From assembly GCF_030611305.1 (NCBI RefSeq), contig NZ_JAUWQB010000020.1:1-46712 (forward strand): a stretch of 46,712 nt of DNA, in the 5' to 3' direction. How positions within the stretch are numbered: the first letter of the stretch is position 1; every line of letters starts with the position of its first letter. Made by a program: the position numbers and the translations under genes. Of this stretch, positions 2,921 through 25,429 are shown piece by piece. Below the pieces are notes generated by a model that was not told the origin of the DNA, did no database searches, and was given only the letters and a program-made list of their open reading frames with translations. The DNA is from Desulfobacula sp. (lineage in GTDB: Bacteria > Desulfobacterota > Desulfobacteria > Desulfobacterales > Desulfobacteraceae).

Positions 2921-4110
2921 TAAATAATACCTTTTTCCTTAAACTCTGAAAGAGTGGCCTCGTCATACCCTAAGAGATTACCGTATATTTCCTGATTCTG
3001 TTCTCCAAATCTGGGAGGAAAGGAAAGTTTTTGGTCACATTCTTCCAGAAAGGGTGTCATATTGGGCGGCGGAGCAAGGGTTACTTTTGTGCCGGTCTTT
3101 GGGTCTTTACATGTAAGGATCCGTCTTGCGACCAATGGATCTTCCACCACTTCATTCACGTTCTTGATCTTTGAGATGGGCACGGTAATAGAGTTAAACA
3201 ACTCAATGAGTTCTTCAGAAGTGTGCTTTTCCGTGATGGCATTAATGGCCTTGTTCAGATTTACTACATCTGTAATCCTGCCTTTGTTCTTTTTATACTC
3301 TTCTTTTGCAAGAGACTTGAACATATCCTGCGATACTACGGATTCCCACTGACGATCATTACCCACGGCAAGGTAGACAAACCCGTTGCTGGTTTTATAA
3401 ACCGATACCGGGCTGAAAAATTCATGGGTGTTTCCGCGTCTGGAAATATTCGCACCAAAGCTCTTTGAAAGGGCAATGGGAACGGTCAGCCAGGATACGG
3501 TGGATTCAAACATGGACAGGTCAATCCGTGTGCCTTCTCCTGTGACCGCCCGTTTAAAGAGCGCTTTCATCAAAAGGCCGTATCCATGTTCGCTGGTTCC
3601 CATGTCCGGCAGGGGAATGCCCAGAACCTGGGGTTCTCCGTCAGCTTCACCGGTAAGTTCCATTAAGCCCGATCTTGCCTGCAAAATCGGATCATAGGCA
3701 CCTTCATTGGAATCCGGGCCAAACCCGGTAAGACCCAGCCAGATAATATCCGGTTTGACCTCTTTTATTATTTCATATGCCATGCCTAGCTTTTCATAAT
3801 TTTTTGGTAACTGATTTGTTATAAAAATATCAACATCAAGCTCTTTAATCAGTTTTTTAAATATCTCCTGCCCTTGGGGATCAGCCATGTTCAATGACAA
3901 AGCTTTTTTCCCTGAGTTAATGCACAGAAAATAGGAGTTCATCCTTTTTTCATCAAGAACGTTTTCTCCGATGAACCGGTTGGGATCTCCATATACCGGG
4001 TGTTCCAGTCTTATGACATTCATTCCGTCCTGGGCCAGTCTGTATGTGAGATATGGGGCAACGGTTGCCTGTTCAAGTGATAGTACCGTGAGATTCTTAA
4101 AAAGTTCCAT
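2920..4110 (-). CDS. Class III CoA-transferase (CaiB/BaiF family)
   Basis: The 396-residue protein has normal length for the formyl-CoA transferase/CaiB family, which moves CoA between an acyl-CoA and a free carboxylate through an aspartyl intermediate. The family Asp falls at residue 169 in PLPDMGT, in the expected place. The N-terminal segment LSLEQATVAPYLTYRLAQDG and the downstream RIDLSMFES fit the fold. The gene overlaps iorB by at least one base and the GntR gene by one base. In context it would activate a carboxylic acid for the mutase, or exchange CoA with the acyl-CoA made by IorAB. The substrates are not predictable from sequence alone. Confidence 0.93.
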   Translation of the reverse strand: MELFKNLTVLSLEQATVAPYLTYRLAQDGMNVIRLEHPVYGDPNRFIGENVLDEKRMNSYFLCINSGKKALSLNMADPQGQEIFKKLIKELDVDIFITNQLPKNYEKLGMAYEIIKEVKPDIIWLGLTGFGPDSNEGAYDPILQARSGLMELTGEADGEPQVLGIPLPDMGTSEHGYGLLMKALFKRAVTGEGTRIDLSMFESTVSWLTVPIALSKSFGANISRRGNTHEFFSPVSVYKTSNGFVYLAVGNDRQWESVVSQDMFKSLAKEEYKKNKGRITDVVNLNKAINAITEKHTSEELIELFNSITVPISKIKNVNEVVEDPLVARRILTCKDPKTGTKVTLAPPPNMTPFLEECDQKLSFPPRFGEQNQEIYGNLLGYDEATLSEFKEKGII

Positions 4111-4705: not shown

Positions 4706-6565
4706 TTATACTGTTTCAATCGCATTCTTTGGGCAGATGGTCAGACAGACACCGCACTGGACACAGAGGACCGGATTTATTTCAGTCTTTTCGGTTTCTT
4801 CGTTCCTGACCATGGCAGGACATTCAAACCTGAGATGGCAGAAACCGCAGTCATCACATTCATCGGAAATTTCAATCTCGAATTTTTCAGGAATGGCCTC
4901 GTCCTTGAAGGCGATAACACAGGGATGGCGGGCAATAACTACTGCAATACCGCCGTCAGGATCATTAACATGCTCGGCAGCTTCCTTAACCACCTTGATC
5001 ATATGTCGAGTGTCATAGGGATCAACCACCTTTAAGTATTCAACGCCACAGCCTTTTACAATGGTTTCAAGGGAGATGGCATTTCCTTTTCTGCCGTCCA
5101 CCCGGTCTCCCTGGGTAATGGCCGGCTGCATACCGGTCATGGCCGTAATATGGTTGTCCAAGATGACCAGGATAAACCTTGCATCATTGTAAACCGCATT
5201 GATCAGGCCTGTGGTGCCGGAATGAAAAAATGTGGAATCCCCCATGGTGGCCACAATGGGCTTTTTTACATCGTCCTGGATATAAGCGTTCCAGAATCCC
5301 GATGCCATGGTAATACCGGCCCCCATGTCAAGGACTGTATCCACAACACCTAAATTGATTCCAAGGGTGTAGCACCCGATATCAGACGGGAAAATTGCCT
5401 TGGGCAGTGCTTTTCTGATGGAATAAAAAGAAGCCCTGTGGGGACAGCCCGGGCAAAGGGTGGGTTTTCTTATGGGAAGTTCAAGGCTTCCCACAAGCCC
5501 GAAGGCCTCCATGCCGCAGTCGCTGCCTGACAATGGGTCCAGGGCGCAGTCTAAAAGAGCCTTGTTCAACATCATTTCAATTTTTTCAGGCAAAAGCTCA
5601 CCTTCCATGGGAACATGGCCGGATAAGCGTCCCAGAGTTTTATGTTTATCCCTTAACATATATTCAATAACCGTGTCGGTCTCTTCAATCACCAGAACCT
5701 TGTCGCAGGCATCCATGAATTCGTCGCTGAGTTTTTCCGGGAAAGGATAGGGCGCCCCGAGTTTTAAAACCGGGATATCATCTCTTTCATATTCTTCAAA
5801 CAGATCCCGGATAACACTGGACGGCACACCGCCGGTGACAACGCCGAAAGGATAATGTTTTCCTTTCGCAAGATTGTGGATATTGTAGGGTGTCAGGGTG
5901 CTGAATTTTTCCGCGATCTGTACATGTTTTTCATTCAATGCCTTGTGCTGCATAAATCTGAACTTCGGGGTGGATGCCCATCGTGAGGGTTCCCGTTTGA
6001 ACTCGGCTTTGGTCATATTGCTTTCAAGCCTGTCATATTTGATGTTCTGCCGGGCATGACAGATCCTGATGGCAGGTCTTACTAATACGGGTACCTGGAA
6101 TTCTTCGGACAGATCAAAAGCAGTTTTTATCATTTCTCTTGCTTCTTCAGGACTTGCCGGGTCAAAAACCGGCACTTTACCCAGCCGTGCCATCATCCTT
6201 GAGTCCTGTTCGGTCTGGGATGAATGGGGTCCCGGATCATCACACGAGATAATAACAAATCCGCCAATATTGCCGATATAGGCCGCTGACATGAACGAGT
6301 CCGCAGCCACATTCAGGCCCACCATTTTCATGCAGCAGGCAGCCCGTTTGCCGGATATGGCAGCAGCAAAGGCATTGTCAAACGCCACTTTCTCATTTAC
6401 AGACCATTCAATACCGGTGTTCAGGTTGGCTGCCTTTGAAAACCTTACCATCTCGGGAAGGATTTCAGAACTTGGCGTGCCCGGATATGATGTCATGATC
6501 TGACAGCCGGCTTCTAAAAGTCCAAGAGCCATTGCGCCGTTTCCTAATAAAAACTCTTCTTTCAT
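4706..6565 (-). CDS. iorA: Indolepyruvate ferredoxin oxidoreductase alpha subunit
   Basis: The 619-residue protein has the IorA layout: an N-terminal pyrimidine-binding domain starting LLGNGAMALGLLEAG, a CPGCPHRASFYSIRKA segment, a TPP-binding GDSTFFHSGTTGLINA, and a C-terminal ferredoxin domain. The ferredoxin Cys sets are 570/573/576/582 and 601/604/607/611. The enzyme converts an aryl- or branched-chain 2-oxoacid plus CoA to acyl-CoA, CO2 and reduced ferredoxin. It is the first gene of the operon; GAGGAT lies upstream of the ATG. Classical IorAB works on aryl pyruvates. The link to a B12 mutase here suggests a different, possibly branched or dicarboxylic, oxoacid, which is inference. Confidence 0.95.
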   Translation of the reverse strand: MKEEFLLGNGAMALGLLEAGCQIMTSYPGTPSSEILPEMVRFSKAANLNTGIEWSVNEKVAFDNAFAAAISGKRAACCMKMVGLNVAADSFMSAAYIGNIGGFVIISCDDPGPHSSQTEQDSRMMARLGKVPVFDPASPEEAREMIKTAFDLSEEFQVPVLVRPAIRICHARQNIKYDRLESNMTKAEFKREPSRWASTPKFRFMQHKALNEKHVQIAEKFSTLTPYNIHNLAKGKHYPFGVVTGGVPSSVIRDLFEEYERDDIPVLKLGAPYPFPEKLSDEFMDACDKVLVIEETDTVIEYMLRDKHKTLGRLSGHVPMEGELLPEKIEMMLNKALLDCALDPLSGSDCGMEAFGLVGSLELPIRKPTLCPGCPHRASFYSIRKALPKAIFPSDIGCYTLGINLGVVDTVLDMGAGITMASGFWNAYIQDDVKKPIVATMGDSTFFHSGTTGLINAVYNDARFILVILDNHITAMTGMQPAITQGDRVDGRKGNAISLETIVKGCGVEYLKVVDPYDTRHMIKVVKEAAEHVNDPDGGIAVVIARHPCVIAFKDEAIPEKFEIEISDECDDCGFCHLRFECPAMVRNEETEKTEINPVLCVQCGVCLTICPKNAIETV

Positions 6566-16012: not shown

Positions 16013-17511
16013 ATGCTAACAGTGGATCAATATGAGTACATACGGATTGCACACAGGGTTTATGGCAAAAAGATCAGAGAAATCACAAGAGAAACAGGCC
16101 ATTCAAGGAACACAGTCAAAAAAGTGTTAAAAAATGAATACATGGGTTACAGCACCCGGCAAAACCAACCATTTCCATCACTTGGGCCTTACCTTGGGAC
16201 GATAGCCAATTGGCTTGTAAATGATAAGGATAATCCCAAAAAGCAACGGCATACCGGAACCAGGATCTACAACCGGCTCAAAAATGAAAAAGGTTATCAA
16301 GGTTCAATTTCAACTGTTCTGCGCTACGTAAGAATTGCCAGGCAAAAAATAGGGGTCAGTGCCAGGCAGGTTTTTATTCCATTGGATCCCCCGGTGGGTC
16401 AGGAAGCTGAAGTGGACTGGGGAAGATGCACTGCAATCCTTGGTGGCCTGAAAACGGTACTTAAATTTTTATGTATACGTTCAAAATTTTCCGGTAAACA
16501 TTTTGTCCGCTGTTACCCTTGTGAAAGGCAGCAGGTTTTATTTGATGCCCATATTCAAGCTTTTCATATTTTGGTGGTATTTTCCCTGTTTTAATTTACG
16601 ACAATCTGACAACTGCGGTTCAAAAAGTGCTTGTGGGTAAAGATCGTATTCTTCAAAAAGAATTTAAAAAATTCAGAGCATATTACAATTTCACACCCCG
16701 ATTTTGCACGCCTGGAGAGGGCCATGAAAAAGGCGAAGTCGAGGGTCTTGTTGGATATGCAAGGCGTAATTACATGGTGCCAATTCCACAGGCTGAAACC
16801 CTTGAAGATTTAAACAGGATGCTTTTACAGGAATGCCAGGCATATGGGGATCATCGTATCAGCGGTAAAGAAAGTTCTGTTAATGAAATGTATGAACAGG
16901 AAAAGCACCATCTGCTTGACCTCCCGGCTATTGAATTTAGTAATATCCAAACGGTAAATGGGAAGTCAGATAAGTATTCCACTGTAATAATAGATAAAAA
17001 TCGTTATTCAGTACCGACAGAGTATGCATATCTGAAAATCAGGGCAGTTTTAAAAGTTGATGGTGTTGATCTTTATTATGGCAACAAAAAAATGGCAGAG
17101 CACCCAAGACTTTATAATAATAACCAATGGAGCCTTGATCCCTCCCACTATCTGGAGCTTATCGGGCAGCGTCCCCGGGCATTTGCAAGCGCCCGTCCGA
17201 TAAAACAGTGGAGGAAGACCTGGCCTGCCAGCTACGAAGCACTGCTTGCCCGATTTTGTGCAAGTAAAGGCGAGACAAAGGGAATAAAAGATTTTATTCA
17301 GGTCCTGCTGCTCCATAAAAAATATAATAACCAGGATATCCAGGCTGCAATTGAAAAAGCATTGAAAGCAAATGTGAGCTGTAGCGATGCTGTCTTTCAA
17401 ATACTGATAAATTCATTAGAACAGCCAACCCCCTTTAGCAGCCTTCCAAACTGGGAGATTCTTCCGACCCCTGATATCTCTGTTTACAGCCAGATCGGAG
17501 GTGCCATATGA
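16013..17511 (+). pseudogene. istA: IS21 transposase IstA, broken by a one-base frameshift
   Basis: The first frame (16013-16594) carries an N-terminal HTH (about residues 15-45) and the first catalytic Asp in EAEVDWGR (Asp135). After AFHI the frame is lost at a T-run near 16570. Adding one T gives FGGIFPVLIYDNLTTAVQKV, which joins the second frame (16627-17511) with the second Asp in YDNL and the Glu region GHEKGEVEGLVGYARR. The three catalytic residues are therefore split between frames. Either the element is inactive, or the slip is tolerated or an assembly error. The C-terminal end overlaps istB by 4 bp as usual in IS21. Confidence 0.88.
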
Positions 17512-18275
17512 ATGCAGCCATGACGGCAATGCTCCAGGAGGATTTTCATTTTTTAAGACTGTCCACAATGATGAAAAACCTTGAACATATCCATCGTCAG
17601 GCCTTGGAAAACAAATTGGGTTATGATGAATTTTTATTAAATTTAACACAAGCAGAAGTCCAGGTTCGCAAAGAGAACGGCAGAAAAAGAAGGATCAGAG
17701 AAGCATCGTTCCCTCTGCATAAACCGCTTGATACATTTGAATTTGATGCAGCGCCGGATTTGGATATACGTTTCATAAATGATCTTGCAGGTGGAAGTTA
17801 CATAAAACGAAATAAAAATATCATATTCTTTGGCAAAAGCGGCACAGGAAAAACCCATCTTGCAACAGCTCTGGGTATTGAAGCATGTGACCAGGGCATC
17901 CGGACAAAATTTATCACAGGCTGCGGCCTTGTAAATGAATTAACAGAAGCCAGGGATGAAAAAAAATTAAGGGCATTAATAAAACGATATTTCAATTATG
18001 GACTTCTGGTCATAGATGAACTTGGGTACGTACCCTTTTCCAAAACAGGAGCAGAACTACTTTTCCAGGTTTTAGCCGAACGGCATGAACGCAAACCGGT
18101 AATTATAACGACCAACAAAGGATTTGGAGATTGGACTCAAATATTTGGGGACCCATCTCTTACAGCTGCCTTATTAGACCGGGTGACACACAGAGCCCAT
18201 GTTATAGATTGTTCATGGGATAGCTACAGGTTAGCTGAAACATTGAAAAATCGGAGAAATAAATCATGGAAATAA
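17508..18275 (+). CDS. istB: IS21 helper ATPase IstB
   Basis: The 255-residue AAA+ ATPase has Walker A GKSGTGKT at residues 109-116 and Walker B LLVIDELGY around 167-173. IstB loads IstA at target DNA during transposition. Length and N-terminal domain are normal. It overlaps istA by 4 bp (ATGA). It looks intact even though istA is frameshifted. Confidence 0.94.
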   Translation: MNAAMTAMLQEDFHFLRLSTMMKNLEHIHRQALENKLGYDEFLLNLTQAEVQVRKENGRKRRIREASFPLHKPLDTFEFDAAPDLDIRFINDLAGGSYIKRNKNIIFFGKSGTGKTHLATALGIEACDQGIRTKFITGCGLVNELTEARDEKKLRALIKRYFNYGLLVIDELGYVPFSKTGAELLFQVLAERHERKPVIITTNKGFGDWTQIFGDPSLTAALLDRVTHRAHVIDCSWDSYRLAETLKNRRNKSWK

Positions 18276-19219: not shown

Positions 19220-19639
19220 TTATGATACCTCCGATTATGGTTAGAGAAAGCTGTCGTGTGAGGATTTTCTTTAATATAAAAGATTTATAAAGATTCAACA
19301 AGTTTTTATTAATATTCGTTTTGTATCAGATAGGAATGAATAGAAGTTTCCCTGATTTACATAATTGATTTTAGATGGTATTAAAAATGGAATTGGGGAT
19401 ATTAACTCAGGCCTTTTCCCCGCATTAAAGCAATATATAAAAAACATAGCAGCATCCCCTTATTTGATCATTCTGATAAAATTGAAGGCAATAATATCCC
19501 TGCTAAAATGACTTTATGTAATGTCCAGACTAAATGACCATTGAGTTTTCCAAGTCCATAAAAAAGAGAATACTTTCCCACTGTAAAAAAGAGTTTTTCA
19601 CTTTCCTAAAGAAATATGAATGTGTAGTTTAGTCTAAAA
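19220..19639. other. Intergenic region without a convincing gene
   Basis: This region is AT-rich, with stops in all frames. One minus-strand hydrophobic stretch of about 40 codons (about 19478-19600, GLGKLNGHLVWTLHKVILAG) has no start codon and might be a fragment of a membrane-protein gene. This is not firm. Confidence 0.4.
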
Positions 19640-19831
19640 GTACAGATCAAGGCGATTGCCGATGTGCTCGGTGTGGTGACCAGTGGCTGCACAGTTCCTT
19701 TGCTGATCAAGCTGCAAAAACAGATCATGCAGATGGCATCGGAAAATCACAGTATGTTCCCGGTATTTGTTATTGATGATGCTCACCTGATGGAAAAGGA
19801 ATCATTAATGGATATCTGCCCACGATTCTGA
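19640..19831 (+). pseudogene. Fragment of an ExeA/TniB-like AAA ATPase
   Basis: The plus strand reads QIKAIADVLGV, then LIKLQKQIMQMAS and PVFVIDDAHLMEKESLMDI before a stop at 19829-19831. The FVIDDAHLM segment is the Walker B region of the AAA ATPases that accompany transposases (ExeA/TniB-like). The Walker A part and the start are missing. It ends 27 bp before the DDAH gene. Confidence 0.65.
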
Positions 19832-19858
19832 TAAAATAGCTTTTTTCAGGAGAAAACA

Positions 19859-20620
19859 ATGTTTAAAAATATTATTGTTAGAAAACCGGGTCGCTCAATG
19901 ATAGATGGTATCAGCAATGCCAAGCTTGGTAAACCTGATTTTAAAAATGCCCTTATACAACATGAAAACTATATCAAAATAATGGAATTTTGTCATGTAA
20001 ATGCTGACATAATTGATGCTGATGAACACTATCCGGATTCAACCTTTATTGAAGACACAGCTGTACTTTCAGAAAAGGTCGCTATTATCACCAATCCAGG
20101 AATAGAGAGCAGAAAGGGAGAAGAAAAAGAGATTTTAAAAAGTATAAAAAAATACTATAAAAACATCGAACATATAAAAGCCCCAGGCACCTGTGAGGGC
20201 GGAGATGTCATGCGGGTTAAAGATCACTTCTATATCGGATTATCTGACAGAACAAATCCAGAAGGTGCAGAACAGTTAATCAATTTGCTTCAAAAATATG
20301 GCTATACAGGGTCTACAGTAGAAATGAACGAAATGCTTCATCTTAAAACAGGCCTGTCATATCTGGAAAACAATAACCTGCTTGTTGCAGGTGAATTCAT
20401 CAATAATCCAGATTTCAAAAATTTCAACAGGATAATTATTCCTAAGGAAGAAAATTATGCTGCAAATTCTATATGGGTGAATGACATCGTTATTGTCCCG
20501 GCTGGTTTCCCTAAAACGGAACGGAGGGTCAAAGATGCTGGGTATAAAACTGTCACAGTAAATATATCCGAATTCAGAAAACTGGACGGTGGATTAAGCT
20601 GCCTCTCTTTGAGATTCTAA
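19859..20620 (+). CDS. Dimethylarginine dimethylaminohydrolase-like amidinohydrolase
   Basis: The 253-residue protein matches the pentein-fold DDAH/arginine deiminase superfamily. Visible catalytic elements are FIEDTAV (residues 64-70), EGGD (113-116), His161 in MLHLKTGLSYL and the nucleophile Cys248 in GGLSCLSLRF. DDAH hydrolyses methylated arginines to citrulline and an amine. A relative acting on another guanidine compound is possible. AGGAGA precedes the ATG. The gene stands alone in the transposon-scarred region, which suggests acquisition. Confidence 0.88.
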   Translation: MFKNIIVRKPGRSMIDGISNAKLGKPDFKNALIQHENYIKIMEFCHVNADIIDADEHYPDSTFIEDTAVLSEKVAIITNPGIESRKGEEKEILKSIKKYYKNIEHIKAPGTCEGGDVMRVKDHFYIGLSDRTNPEGAEQLINLLQKYGYTGSTVEMNEMLHLKTGLSYLENNNLLVAGEFINNPDFKNFNRIIIPKEENYAANSIWVNDIVIVPAGFPKTERRVKDAGYKTVTVNISEFRKLDGGLSCLSLRF

Positions 20621-20924
20621 AGTTACAAACTTTATTCATATAGATCACATTTTTCGAAATTCCTGGATATTGATTTTGAATAATCCGGTTACTCACCAAT
20701 AAATTTTAATGGGCGTTTGCCTTTTTTTGATTTTGATTTTCCCCATATACTATAATTTCTAATCTGAAACTAAAAAATCTATCAATACCATATCCTGTAC
20801 CATGGTAAATTTCTAAAAGCCCGGACTGGTGAAAGAAGCGCTCGGTAATTTGCCGAATTTGACTCATGACAGATAATACCATCTATAAACGATAGTACTT
20901 CAAGAAGAATCAGTGATTTTTATA
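20621..20924. other. Intergenic region without a convincing gene
   Basis: A short minus-strand protein-like stretch (EIYHGTGYGIDRFFSFRLEI, about 20695-20810) ends in a stop and has no start codon. It may be a gene fragment. Nothing else was seen. Confidence 0.4.
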
Positions 20925-21422
20925 TCAAGTTGAATAGGCCAGCATAATTTTTTTTTTAATATGTTTTTCCACCACATGGCCCATTTCGTGTCCCACCACA
21001 AAAAGTAGTTCCTCATCGTTCATCATGTCCATCAACCCACTATAAATCCTGATAGTTTCGTCTGCCATGGCAAAAGCATTGATCTGAGATGACCAATAAA
21101 CCTTGAAATCAAATACATACCCATCTGAATTGTATCGATTCCCCACAAGTTTTTTCAACCTCATTCCATAAGGATTTCCGGTCCCTGCAATATGGTTTTT
21201 TGAATCTGACTGTTTTGCGGCCATTGTTGCAATGAGCTTAACTTCTCCATCACTTAAGGTGGCGGCCTTAATCACGTCAATCCCTGCTTCTGTTGCAAGC
21301 TGCAAATTGGTATCTTCACACCCAAAAAAAACAAATACGCAAAATAAACATATAAGTAGCTGTTTGATCATTTTTTTTATATACAGGATTTTTAATACCC
21401 TATCAACTTTAACCTTTGCCAT
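20925..21422 (-). pseudogene. M48 family metalloprotease, N-terminal half, cut by an inversion
   Basis: The minus strand encodes a lipoprotein-type signal (ICLFCVFVFFGC, lipobox Cys35), then the M48 segment NAFAMADETIRIYSGLMDMM and the zinc site HEMGH at residues 145-149. The reading ends six residues after KHIKKKI with LAYST and a stop. The rest of the protease is on the opposite strand at 21646-22005. A start at 21371 (MIKQLL) would give a more usual signal peptide. The missing half carries the third zinc ligand, so this part should be inactive. Confidence 0.88.
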
Positions 21423-21645
21423 TAAGATATTCTCAGATAGCAGAAAAAGTATAAGTCTATGAAGGCAACAACCGATATAAGGCTTTCCAAGATGCTATAT
21501 AATACAAAGGCGTTGGCCGGAATTCGCAGGGCTCAATCCAGACAAAATTTGAAAACCACTATTTAGCATATCATCTTTTTTCATCATTAAGATTTTAATT
21601 CAGCTTTATAATCTCATGGCAGTATTACAGGAGAAATTTCCATAT

Positions 21646-22005
21646 GCTGCAAGCGCAGTGCGGAAAGGAATCGCCTCCCAGGAAAATATTGCTGGAGACA
21701 TTGCGCGATCTGTCTTGGGTGGGCTGGCCCAGACACTTTTAAGCGCCCAGTTTTCACAAGCAGAAGAAAGGGAGGCCGATGACTTTGGCATTCTGTTTTT
21801 AAAAAAATACGGATTTGATGTTAATGCTGCCATATCAGCTTTAAAAAAACTGGATGGCCTGGGGAAAAAACATTCGTTTTTATCCAGTCATCCTGCACCT
21901 GCTGCAAGGGCAAAGCGCCTGAAAAAGAAGCTTGACCCACCTGAAAAAATTGGTGCCGCTTCATTCTTTGATAAATTGATTGCCCGGATTATCAGCCTGT
22001 TTTAA
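21646..22005 (+). pseudogene. M48 family metalloprotease, C-terminal half, inverted relative to the N-terminal half
   Basis: The plus strand continues the protease: SAVRKGIASQENIAGDIARS, then QAEEREADDFGILFLKKYGF with the third zinc ligand Glu in EREAD, and SSHPAPAARAKRLKK. An ATG at 21616 gives an open frame of 129 codons, but its first ten codons come from DNA beyond the breakpoint. Flipping 20934-21645 joins codon 163 of the N-terminal half in frame to GCT at 21646 and yields one ORF of 282 codons, a normal size for a small M48 lipoprotein protease. Confidence 0.88.
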
Positions 22006-22069
22006 TGTTCTTTAGGCTACTTCTTCACTATACCGACAATCCGGGCCATAGTTTTTTATATACAAAAAC

Positions 22070-22393
22070 CTATTTAAATATTGAAGATACGGAGTTTTTA
22101 ACATTCTTAAAAACTCCTTTTTCACCATCAAGGATCTTTTCCATTTCACCCGGATCAAGGTGAACTGCACCGCATCCTTCATTGACACATATGTCGATAC
22201 TGATACCTTTATGGTCCACTTCCACCAAGCTGTGGGTACCGCATCTAAAACAGTGGTTCTTGTGAGCACTGCTATAAGATTCCTCAGTTTCTTTTGCAGC
22301 CTCAACTCTCAATTCTTCAATCAGCAACCGGTCTTTTTCTTTAAAATAAAGATCCTCTTCACTGGGTTTAACAATAATACGTTCATTTACCAT
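22070..22393 (-). CDS. Zinc-ribbon protein (zf-TFIIB type)
   Basis: The 107-residue protein has a helical charged N-terminus and a zinc ribbon with Cys48, Cys51, Cys69 and Cys74 (HCFRCGTHSLVEV, DICVNEGCGAVHLDPGE). The pattern resembles the zf-TFIIB family, small proteins of unknown role. GAGGTATTTC precedes the ATG. It converges on the broken protease gene. Confidence 0.8.
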   Translation of the reverse strand: MVNERIIVKPSEEDLYFKEKDRLLIEELRVEAAKETEESYSSAHKNHCFRCGTHSLVEVDHKGISIDICVNEGCGAVHLDPGEMEKILDGEKGVFKNVKNSVSSIFK

Positions 22394-22906
22394 GAAATAC
22401 CTCCTCTATTAAACTTAGTTCAACCTTATTTATGATGGCCAGCCCCACACGTATCAGATTCTTTAAAAAATATAACAAATTACCATATCTCCATCTCTTT
22501 AAGACGTCACTCTCATTCATTGCCTGACACTGAAGTATGTTGAAAATCAGTTGCAATCATTTTTTTGTTCTCTTTGTAGTCTGCAAATTTAATAATTCAT
22601 CTGACAATGGTTAATAGATTTTATCAAATTGAAAAGCAAGCCCTATGTCTATTTTTAAACGGTTTCAGCAGTTTTTGGTGGGAGACTATTTGAAAAAGAT
22701 ATACTCAGTGAATTTTCATATGACTTAGTCCGTCTTTATATCATCATTATACGTTGAGTAATCCTACTTTTTTTATTTTCGAATTTTTTTTAAAACTTGA
22801 AATGTAGGTTCATAAAGGGCACTTTTTGGCTTGAAAAGCGGCAGTATGGGACGTATATTAGAGGCTGTTGCAATGATCAAGGTAAAATTTGAAAAGGAGA
22901 CTTCAA
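22394..22906. other. AT-rich intergenic region, no gene seen
   Basis: This 513-bp stretch holds no supported gene. Only short frames without ribosome sites occur. The last 60 bp contain AAAAGGAG, the ribosome site of the following gene. Confidence 0.5.
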
Positions 22907-23842
22907 ATGCATTTGGGAATGCACACCTACAGCCTTTATCACCATGGCGTTGCAGAGGACTGGGCCGGGTTCAAGCTGCCCTGGGACCGGCAGATGACCT
23001 TTATGGAAATGATGGACTACACCCTTGAACTGGGGCTGGAAGGCCTTCATCTGGACGCCAAAGCCCTGGACCGGCTGACACCTGATTACCTTGAAACCGT
23101 CAGGGAATATGCTCGGGATAAGAACCTGTATCTGGAATTTAATTTTGCACTGAAAAGCGGTCATTACGATTCTGCGGTTCAATTTGAGGTAGAAGAAGGG
23201 ATCAATATTGCCCACCGAATCGGTGCAGATCTCACCAAAATCGGGATGAACCTGAAACGTCCGCGGCCCATTGCCGGCGGCAAATTCCACCCGAACATGA
23301 TGACCCAGCTTGAATCGGTTGTTGAACGAGTCATTGCCGCCCTCCCCTTGGTTGAAAAGACCGGGGTCCGGCTGGCCCTTGAAAATCATACGGATGCCTT
23401 TTCCGAGGAGGTGATCTGGGTCCTGGATCAAATCAATCATCCCATGGTCGGGGCCTGCATAGATACGGTCAATGCCATCCATGTCACCGAAAGTCCAATT
23501 TCAGCCGTGAAAAACCTGGCTCCCCGTGCCTTTACAAACCATTTCAGGGACAATAAAATCGTCATCACGCCCTGGGGTCTAAAGTTCACCGGGGCAGCTG
23601 TGGGCGAAGGGGACCTGGACATGAAAAAATCATATGAGCTGATCGGTCAGAATCCGAATGTGAAGCGGATCAACATCGAGCTGGATCTTGAGTGTCCCCT
23701 GGACGATATGGAGTCCGCCATGGAGACTGAACGGGCTGCCCTGATCCGAACATTGATTACTGTAGAAACGTATTGGGCATCCATAGATAAAAAGAGGCTG
23801 GGCCTGTTATTTCCTGTCAAGCCGTTATTTGTATATGTTTAG
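22907..23842 (+). CDS. Sugar phosphate isomerase/epimerase-like TIM barrel protein
   Basis: The 311-residue product belongs to the xylose-isomerase-like TIM barrel (AP endonuclease 2) superfamily. Candidate metal ligands are Glu in LALENHTD, Asp/His in ACIDTVNAIH, His in TNHFRDNK and Glu in NIELDLE. GC content is higher than in the flanks. The ATG at 22907 with AAAAGGAGA upstream is preferred to an in-frame TTG at 22889. The last 25 residues look unusual for the family, so the 3' end may have been altered. The substrate is unknown. Confidence 0.82.
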   Translation: MHLGMHTYSLYHHGVAEDWAGFKLPWDRQMTFMEMMDYTLELGLEGLHLDAKALDRLTPDYLETVREYARDKNLYLEFNFALKSGHYDSAVQFEVEEGINIAHRIGADLTKIGMNLKRPRPIAGGKFHPNMMTQLESVVERVIAALPLVEKTGVRLALENHTDAFSEEVIWVLDQINHPMVGACIDTVNAIHVTESPISAVKNLAPRAFTNHFRDNKIVITPWGLKFTGAAVGEGDLDMKKSYELIGQNPNVKRINIELDLECPLDDMESAMETERAALIRTLITVETYWASIDKKRLGLLFPVKPLFVYV

Positions 23843-24291
23843 GGAAAAATCGGGCTATGTGAGCTTTAGCTGGTTCACATTAACGGAAGCTTTTGTACAT
23901 TTCAGCAAATATCAGTCTGGGAGTTTTCGCGGCATTGAAGTTAGCAAGATTTTGAGGAGCGTACTTAGTAAGCCTTTTGTCTATCTACAGTTGCTGTGAG
24001 CCTTTAATCCAAAGGCGTTGACTTCTTTCTGTAATGCTGCCCGGAATCAAAATTCTACCGGTGAGCCATTGTATTCATTAGTCTGGATGTTTTAAAATTT
24101 TTACACAACCCTATATATGGTATATGGAGATTTTTCAGCTTTGAAATTTTTATTCAATTATATAAACTATTAGCATCATGCCCGGCCATTTCCCCGCACT
24201 AATTTTTATAATATATCAAATTTACTGAGCACTTCTGGTACGGTTCTGAGAATTCCCATCATACAAAAACTGGTGTTTAAATGACCGGTTG
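23843..24291. other. Intergenic region containing a dispersed repeat
   Basis: No gene was found in this 449-bp region. It includes the 21-bp repeat at 24218-24238. Confidence 0.5.
24218..24238. repeat. Dispersed 21-bp repeat, copy 1
   Basis: AAATTTACTGAGCACTTCTG plus G occurs here and, identical, at 29379-29399. Both copies are intergenic, in the same orientation. A diverged relative lies at 8988-9006. Confidence 0.7.
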
Positions 24292-24870
24292 TTATTTTCC
24301 AGGATTTATACCCTTCCCAATTGAAAATGCATCCCCAATCTTATCACTGATACCGTGATAGGTTTGACAGGATGGCGCATAAACGATCGGATTAATTTTT
24401 TTGATATCCGGCATTCCATCATCATTGAGCACAGACTCATCGGCCTTAACATCGATAATTTCACCAATAAATTGTGTATGTAATCCTATCTCAAAAGTAT
24501 GAATGAGTTTACATTCCAGTATTAAAGGAAATTCTTCAATGTAGGGGGCATTGACCAGGTCACTTTTTATGGGTGTTAGGCACGTGGCCTTGAATTTATC
24601 TTCGGTTTTACCCGTAGCCATACCTAAATAATCAGCCTCTTTAACATATTTCTGGGATGGAATATTCAAAGTATATGCCTTACTTTTAACAATACAATTA
24701 TAACTGTATGTGGCTTTACGCAATGACACAGTTACACACGGTGGCTTGGAACAACAAATACCACCCCATGCGACAGTCATGGCGTTGGCTTTCCCATCTT
24801 TATCATATGTAGCGACAATAAGGACGGGAGCGGGATAAACTATGGTTTTTGCGCCTATTGATTTTTTCAT
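24292..24870 (-). CDS. Flavin reductase-like domain protein (flavoredoxin type)
   Basis: The 192-residue protein matches FMN-binding flavin reductase-like proteins: [20 protein letters not shown] with [12 protein letters not shown] at the flavin site, then [13 protein letters not shown] and YTLNIPS. Such flavoredoxins transfer electrons in the cytoplasm of sulfate reducers. GGAGA lies upstream of the ATG. It is monocistronic as far as can be seen. Confidence 0.9.
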
Positions 24871-24978
24871 TTATAATCTCCTGAGAAATAATGTTATGCT
24901 TAGTTGACTTCACTACTCATCAATATTGTGAAGTGATTGTTGATTAAATATCACAAAATTCATCTTAACCAAACTTTT

Positions 24979-25170
24979 TTAAAACGGTGTAAAAACTTCT
25001 TTCCCATCCCTGGCGTCAAATAAAATCTGAGAAACTTTCCTACCCCCGGCTGTATCATGAAATCTTTTAATATGATTCCCTTTGTTTTTTCCTGAATTGA
25101 ATTCTGAATTAGATCGCTGATTTTCAATACATTCCCTGATTGCTGCTCGTTTCTCTTCATATAGATACAT
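24979..25170 (-). CDS. Small protein of unknown function, second copy
   Basis: The 63-residue protein is a paralogue of the product at 10543-10734, with the same length and an almost identical tail (TAGGRKVSQILFD, RDGKEVFTPF). The N-terminal half has diverged. GGAGAG precedes the ATG. Unlike the first copy it has no nuclease gene behind it; downstream similarity stops at the stop codon. Confidence 0.65.
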   Translation of the reverse strand: MYLYEEKRAAIRECIENQRSNSEFNSGKNKGNHIKRFHDTAGGRKVSQILFDARDGKEVFTPF

Positions 25171-25292
25171 GAAGGTCGTCTCTCCTGTTTCAGGTTATAA
25201 TGAATGCGAAACTGGGTTTATTATTGGTTTATTACACTTGGGGAAGGAGAATTCAAGGGTTTTTGAATTTAGATAAACAACGTTTTTAGATA
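24979..25292 (-). repeat. Duplicated gene-plus-upstream segment, copy B
   Basis: This matches copy A (10543-10852) in the gene and in about 120 bp of upstream DNA, including the CAGGTTAT and AATTCAAGGGTTTT stretches. The non-coding part is at least as well conserved as the N-terminal coding half, which suggests a selected control region or recent common origin. Confidence 0.75.
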
Positions 25293-25370
25293 AACCACTT
25301 AGGAGTTATCCATAATCCGCAAATATAAGGACTAACATGCCGCTTAAAATTTAAAAATAATTTTTAATGC

Positions 25371-25429
25371 TTGACTTCTAATCGACATTCTAATATTGTA
25401 CTTAGATTGTGCTATATTGTAATAGCACA
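25371..25429 (+). promoter_or_regulatory. Cold-shock gene promoter and leader hairpin
   Basis: TTGACT (25371-25376), 17 nt, TATTGT (25394-25399) forms a sigma70-like promoter. Just after it, TGTGCTAT (25408-25415) and ATAGCACA (25422-25429) form a perfect 8-bp inverted repeat with a 6-nt loop. The resulting leader of about 125 nt is typical of cold-shock genes, whose 5' RNA controls translation with temperature. Confidence 0.6.

Follow-up and report, generated by a model that had tools for sequence, protein, structure and literature searches.

In Desulfobacula sp., a single conservative inversion, about 0.7 kb long, has very probably disabled an accessory gene that encodes a LoiP-like M48 metalloprotease. 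The window analysed here is the entire contig C144 (46,712 bases), one of the 159 contigs in a draft genome of 3.57 Mb, and it is the only carrier of the protease halves in that genome, where the remaining M48 matches are different genes. The N-terminal and C-terminal halves lie back to back on the minus and plus strands, respectively. The best reading of this arrangement is an ordinary and recent gene-breaking inversion, supported from both ends by different evidence. The features concerned are listed below.

20934 to 21422, minus strand: N-terminal half of the LoiP-like M48 lipoprotein protease gene, 163 codons, with HEMGH
21643 to 22005, plus strand: C-terminal half of the same gene, 119 codons, with EREAD and SSHP-x4-R
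20934 to 21645, no strand: inverted segment of about 709-712 bp, its limits ambiguous by a 3-base overlap; delimited by relatives with a contiguous gene and by repeat continuity
20934 to 20936, no strand: left breakpoint, ATA
21643 to 21645, no strand: right breakpoint, TAT, matching the left one in inverted orientation
21501 to 21645, plus strand: repeat B, a dispersed intergenic repeat upstream of the protease gene; the outer breakpoint cuts it close to the 3' end
20682 to 20933, minus strand: remainder of repeat B (roughly the first 24 bases, counted inward from 20933), followed by repeat A, whose profile matches 20886-20726

The initial annotation had described a gene split between a minus-strand half ending in KKKIMLAY and a plus-strand half starting with AASAVRKG, and both open reading frames were found where it placed them. 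The minus-strand frame (20925-21422) continues past the gene part for two codons (ST) and a stop, to 20925. The plus-strand frame (21616-22005) begins ahead of the gene-derived part, at 21616, with MAVLQEKFPY-AASAVRKG. The two halves match complementary parts of the Pfam Peptidase_M48 profile (PF01435), namely positions 26-87 for the N-terminal half (E 3.1e-14) and 107-184 for the C-terminal half (E 5.9e-9). In NCBIfam, LoiP was the best match of both (E 9.7e-41, 139.8 bits, and E 2.2e-21, 76.4 bits, respectively); scored separately and not joined, each half by itself falls below the whole-protein cut-off of 365 bits for NF052399. A search of solved structures returned one weak M48 match for the N-terminal half (3c37) and none for the C-terminal half. 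By eye, the N-terminal half begins with a hydrophobic stretch that includes a cysteine. The previously proposed length of 282 codons for the restored gene is correct as the sum of 163 and 119 but over-extended at its start. In L027, the closest relative found, a stop stands immediately upstream of the conserved start MIKQ; the natural start is therefore probably M18 (21371), for a predicted conserved length of 265 codons.

The motif set of the M48 family (HExxH, a downstream E and HP-x4-R) is present, split over the two reading frames. In E. coli BepA, zinc is bound by both histidines of HExxH, by a glutamate further downstream and by the histidine of the HP motif (PMC7950410), and on this pattern the break divides the metal site. 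With HExxH in one half and both E and HP-x4-R in the other, no single chain could provide the zinc site, and we infer from this divided site a probable loss of function.

The junction within the gene was compared with relatives. A total of 493 encoding stretches were found, and the best 80 of these 493 loci were retained for comparison. As expected of a pseudogene formed by inversion, the relatives carry the gene on one strand. In 78 of the best 80 loci, the two halves sit next to each other on the same strand, in 77 of them in one frame, with frame continuity read from the relatives and not from joined halves. Two of the 78 (L028 and L045) have deletions that break the gene, and the two remaining loci (L050 and L100) gave no match to the C-terminal half at E 0.001. 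The initial annotation had suggested looking for the intact gene in close relatives. Within the genus, both halves occur in 5 of 25 other genomes and are adjacent on one strand in all five (5/5), one of which (G015) has the gene cut by a contig end; no match was obtained in the other 20 at E 1e-20 for the N-terminal half or 1e-6 for the C-terminal half. The two counts overlap, with G016 corresponding to L030 and G012 to L031. Relatives with the halves on opposite strands had been named as evidence that would speak against an inversion; a search for them found no opposite-strand match of either half in any of the best 80 of the 493 loci.

The position of this junction is defined to within three bases. 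In L027, a single gene is matched by the N-terminal half at 3126-3609 (80.6% identity, blastn) and by the C-terminal half at 3607-3957 (79.5%), and the two matches overlap by 3 bases. The same overlap, 20934-20936 with 21643-21645, was seen in DNA matches to 10 distinct loci (L014, L023, L027, L029, L030, L031, L033, L034, L035 and L044). It is also present in L009, L010 and L026, which carry the same DNA as L030, L031 and L033 and were left uncounted. L022 and L039 are in register with the 3-base overlap and match at 3 more bases. At the remaining loci compared that carry the gene, either the match falls short of at least one breakpoint or, in L028, a deletion has removed the gene at that place.

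The evidence for the outer junction does not depend on the protease gene. The upstream repeat region (21423-21642) has no DNA match in the gene-bearing loci compared, and repeat B, of which 21501-21642 was turned together with the N-terminal half, is dispersed in the genus. Among its 16 non-self matches, 6 continue past the expected breakpoint within one base, 4 of them strongly, with the sequence TATTCAAC..GATATAAAAA, the reverse complement of the left flank of the window from 20936 downward. Out of 500 dinucleotide shuffles, the continuation score was reached by 0 for L108, L109 and L115, by 1 for L119, by 9 for L111 and by 31 for L112. The four strongest continuations come from three genomes (G014, G018 and G008). 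An earlier run with simple shuffles, on 12 of the 16 non-self matches before all 16 were included, returned the same four, at 0 of 300. The remaining 10 of the 16 matches lack a continuation at the predicted position, to within one base; the one in L110 is shifted by 2 and lacks significance. Taken together, the alignments establish, at the level of sequence comparison, that the halves were separated by an inversion relative to the relatives at both junctions. The two junctions are concordant and therefore indicate a single conservative inversion of about 0.7 kb.

Among the dispersed repeats, stretch 20640-20940 has six further partial matches in its own genome, of about 28-114 bases, the best being 87% over 107 bases; for 21423-21660, the best other match is 90% over 30 bases. 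Among the matches listed, those within 20682-20921 extend to at least 17 of the 25 other genus genomes and to G047 of another family. A further dispersed intergenic repeat was observed at 24037-24210, of which 24037-24148 is matched by the repeat A profile (E 2.2e-5). A 19-base repeat pattern had 14 sites (2 exact) in 58 genomes including the own genome, against 6 for the reversed control, and is not counted as evidence. An insertion-sequence terminus at the left breakpoint, suspected as repeat A ends nearby, was rejected as a candidate, with repeat B crossing the breakpoint.

Mediation of the inversion by an insertion sequence, through an element end or by recombination between inverted element copies, is very unlikely. 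Repeats A and B are found both at the outer breakpoint and within the segment, and IS21 genes end 2.7 kb to the left, as such an origin might predict. The outer breakpoint, however, runs through repeat B and abuts no element end. Furthermore, a blastn search of 20600-22099 against the window revealed no second match within that interval at E 1, and a repeat search there returned short, weak pairs only. An assembly or library artefact, in which a chimeric contig would be absent from the cell, is also unlikely, if somewhat less so. It would be in keeping with a draft assembly of 159 contigs and with an outer breakpoint located within a repeat family. Against it stand two breakpoints that each continue into the expected flank with only 3 shared bases, and the best own-genome matches mentioned above, among which no near-identical repeat able to confuse an assembler was found. 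A single template switch, moreover, would be expected to yield one junction, not two.

Both halves are still open and little decayed; the event therefore appears recent compared with the divergence from the closest relatives. The dN/dS values for the N- and C-terminal halves were 0.109 and 0.183 between the window and L027, 0.143 and 0.168 between the window and L029, and 0.173 and 0.143 between L027 and L029; with dS near 0.7-1.0 and near saturation, these values are rough. L022, in which no reading frame was found with the motif used, was left out of this comparison. On the window branch, dN appears to be the largest of the three lineages in the C-terminal half and the smallest in the N-terminal half, by simple arithmetic on the dN/dS table. 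At columns conserved in at least 90% of sequences, with L028 and L045 left out, the window deviates at 1 of 42 in the N-terminal half (G105E; 42 of 81 homologues deviate at as many) and at 0 of 15 in the C-terminal half. At 95% conservation, it deviates at 1 of 35 (as many in 23 of 81 homologues) and 0 of 9, respectively. Compared with 20 nearer relatives, the deviations are 2 of 51 (L93W and G105E; as many in 3 of 20) and 1 of 45 (N33S; as many in 10 of 20). Clear decay thus appears absent. Some decay is possible, given G105E and L93W in conserved columns and the C-terminal dN of the window branch.

This state of preservation, together with the conservative nature of the inversion, is also what the OFF state of a programmed reversible switch (inverton) would look like, in which a recombinase flips the 0.7-kb segment and turns the protease on or off. 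Serine integrases are able to act on sites with only a short common core. The initial annotation had preferred a single inversion over such a recombinase switch and reported only ATA/TAT microhomology at the breakpoints. The latter is borne out by the overlap in the 10 distinct loci, with no inverted repeat at the breakpoints beyond 3 bases. At least 3 shared bases also occur in 6.2% of 200,000 random inverted pairs from this window, and the overlap may therefore be due to chance. Identity in the inverted register, with the shared bases counted, is 10 of 33 and 18 of 63 positions, and dyad symmetry at the two breakpoints (8/25 and 7/25) is below the background mean of 8.69. Invertons are described in PMC11892184 as flanked by inverted repeats of 10-40 nt, a length not reached here.

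No Resolvase-family gene was detected in the own genome at E 0.001, in a genome-wide search confined to this family; a control search gave hits in 10 of 14 genomes. Among the 30 window proteins scanned (of 150 reading frames of at least 60 aa), the recombination genes are of IS21 type only, and contig C15 carries one IS110-family gene. The gene-bearing relatives compared, moreover, have no DNA match to the upstream repeat region, and the draft assembly holds only one orientation of the segment. An inverton is accordingly highly improbable. A reversible switch acting without inverted repeats on the 3-base core, with the protease off in some cells and on in others, seems less probable still. The preference for a single inversion is supported from both junctions, and the on/off state that the initial annotation had left open is disfavoured.

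In the vicinity of the inversion, an open dimethylargininase-like gene was observed at 19859-20620 (E 3.1e-108; 361.4 bits, below the family cut-off of 450). Part of an IS21-type transposase (294 aa; a partial match below the family cut-off) and an IstB helper are located at 16627-18275. A stretch at about 19640-19830 resembles by eye a remnant of a transposition-type ATPase, with stops in the single frame translated. No tRNA or tmRNA was found in the window, and no Rfam match was obtained over 19400-25400 at E 1. Comparison of 41 window proteins with 49 fetched loci revealed no neighbour of the window's protease gene beside the protease gene there, which makes synteny unusable.

Other breaks were observed in the same protease gene. 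L028 (about 6430-6450) and L045 (about 6298-6310) carry deletions of roughly 200 bases that begin at nearly the same codons as the inversion breakpoint of the window and have a putative direct repeat of about 5 bases at their ends, as judged against L029 and L041. This is possibly a fragile spot in the gene, and three cases are too few to say. In addition, around position 1950 of L008 (G017), the DNA downstream of the protease is matched at 87% as far as the last bases of the gene, beyond which the sequence is unrelated; this may be a further loss of the gene, or simply a terminator in common.

In the single inversion that we favour, the first break would have fallen within the gene, shortly after the HExxH motif, and the second upstream, in the dispersed AT-rich repeat, so that the HExxH half and its upstream DNA would have been turned round. 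A joint with 3 shared bases or none fits non-homologous or template-switch repair, which would be the simplest reading. The inversion is presumably fixed in the population. With 20 of the 25 other genus genomes giving no match at these cut-offs, the protease gene seems dispensable or accessory in the genus, and its fate here is apparently a lineage-specific gene loss. The locus provides a base-exact case in which a Desulfobacula-like lineage has apparently lost a gene through a small inversion whose ends share almost no sequence. Losses of this kind are easily missed because the pieces resemble two separate small genes. The wider consequence is small unless both orientations exist.

The protease can be compared with LoiP (YggG), described in PMC7950410 as an E. 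coli M48 metalloprotease and outer-membrane lipoprotein. It resembles LoiP in its best NCBIfam match, the hydrophobic N-terminus with a cysteine, and the HExxH, E and HP-x4-R motifs; it differs in that the gene is in two pieces, each below the family cut-off, with the zinc site in no single chain. As in invertons and other intragenic inversions, a segment with part of a gene is turned and the gene is left off. Unlike in invertons, the inverted repeats are of 3 bases at most, a Resolvase-family gene was not found and a second orientation was not seen in the assembly. The small inversions of Salmonella reported in PMC3411829 are similar in having a short shared sequence at the joint and, apparently, no dedicated recombinase. 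The spontaneous inversions verified in that study share at least 12 bases, with candidates of 7 and 9 bases failing, which counts against our preferred reading with its 3 bases; most candidates there were picked by long shared sequence. The present case also differs from those of Salmonella in that it comes from an assembled genome and splits a gene.
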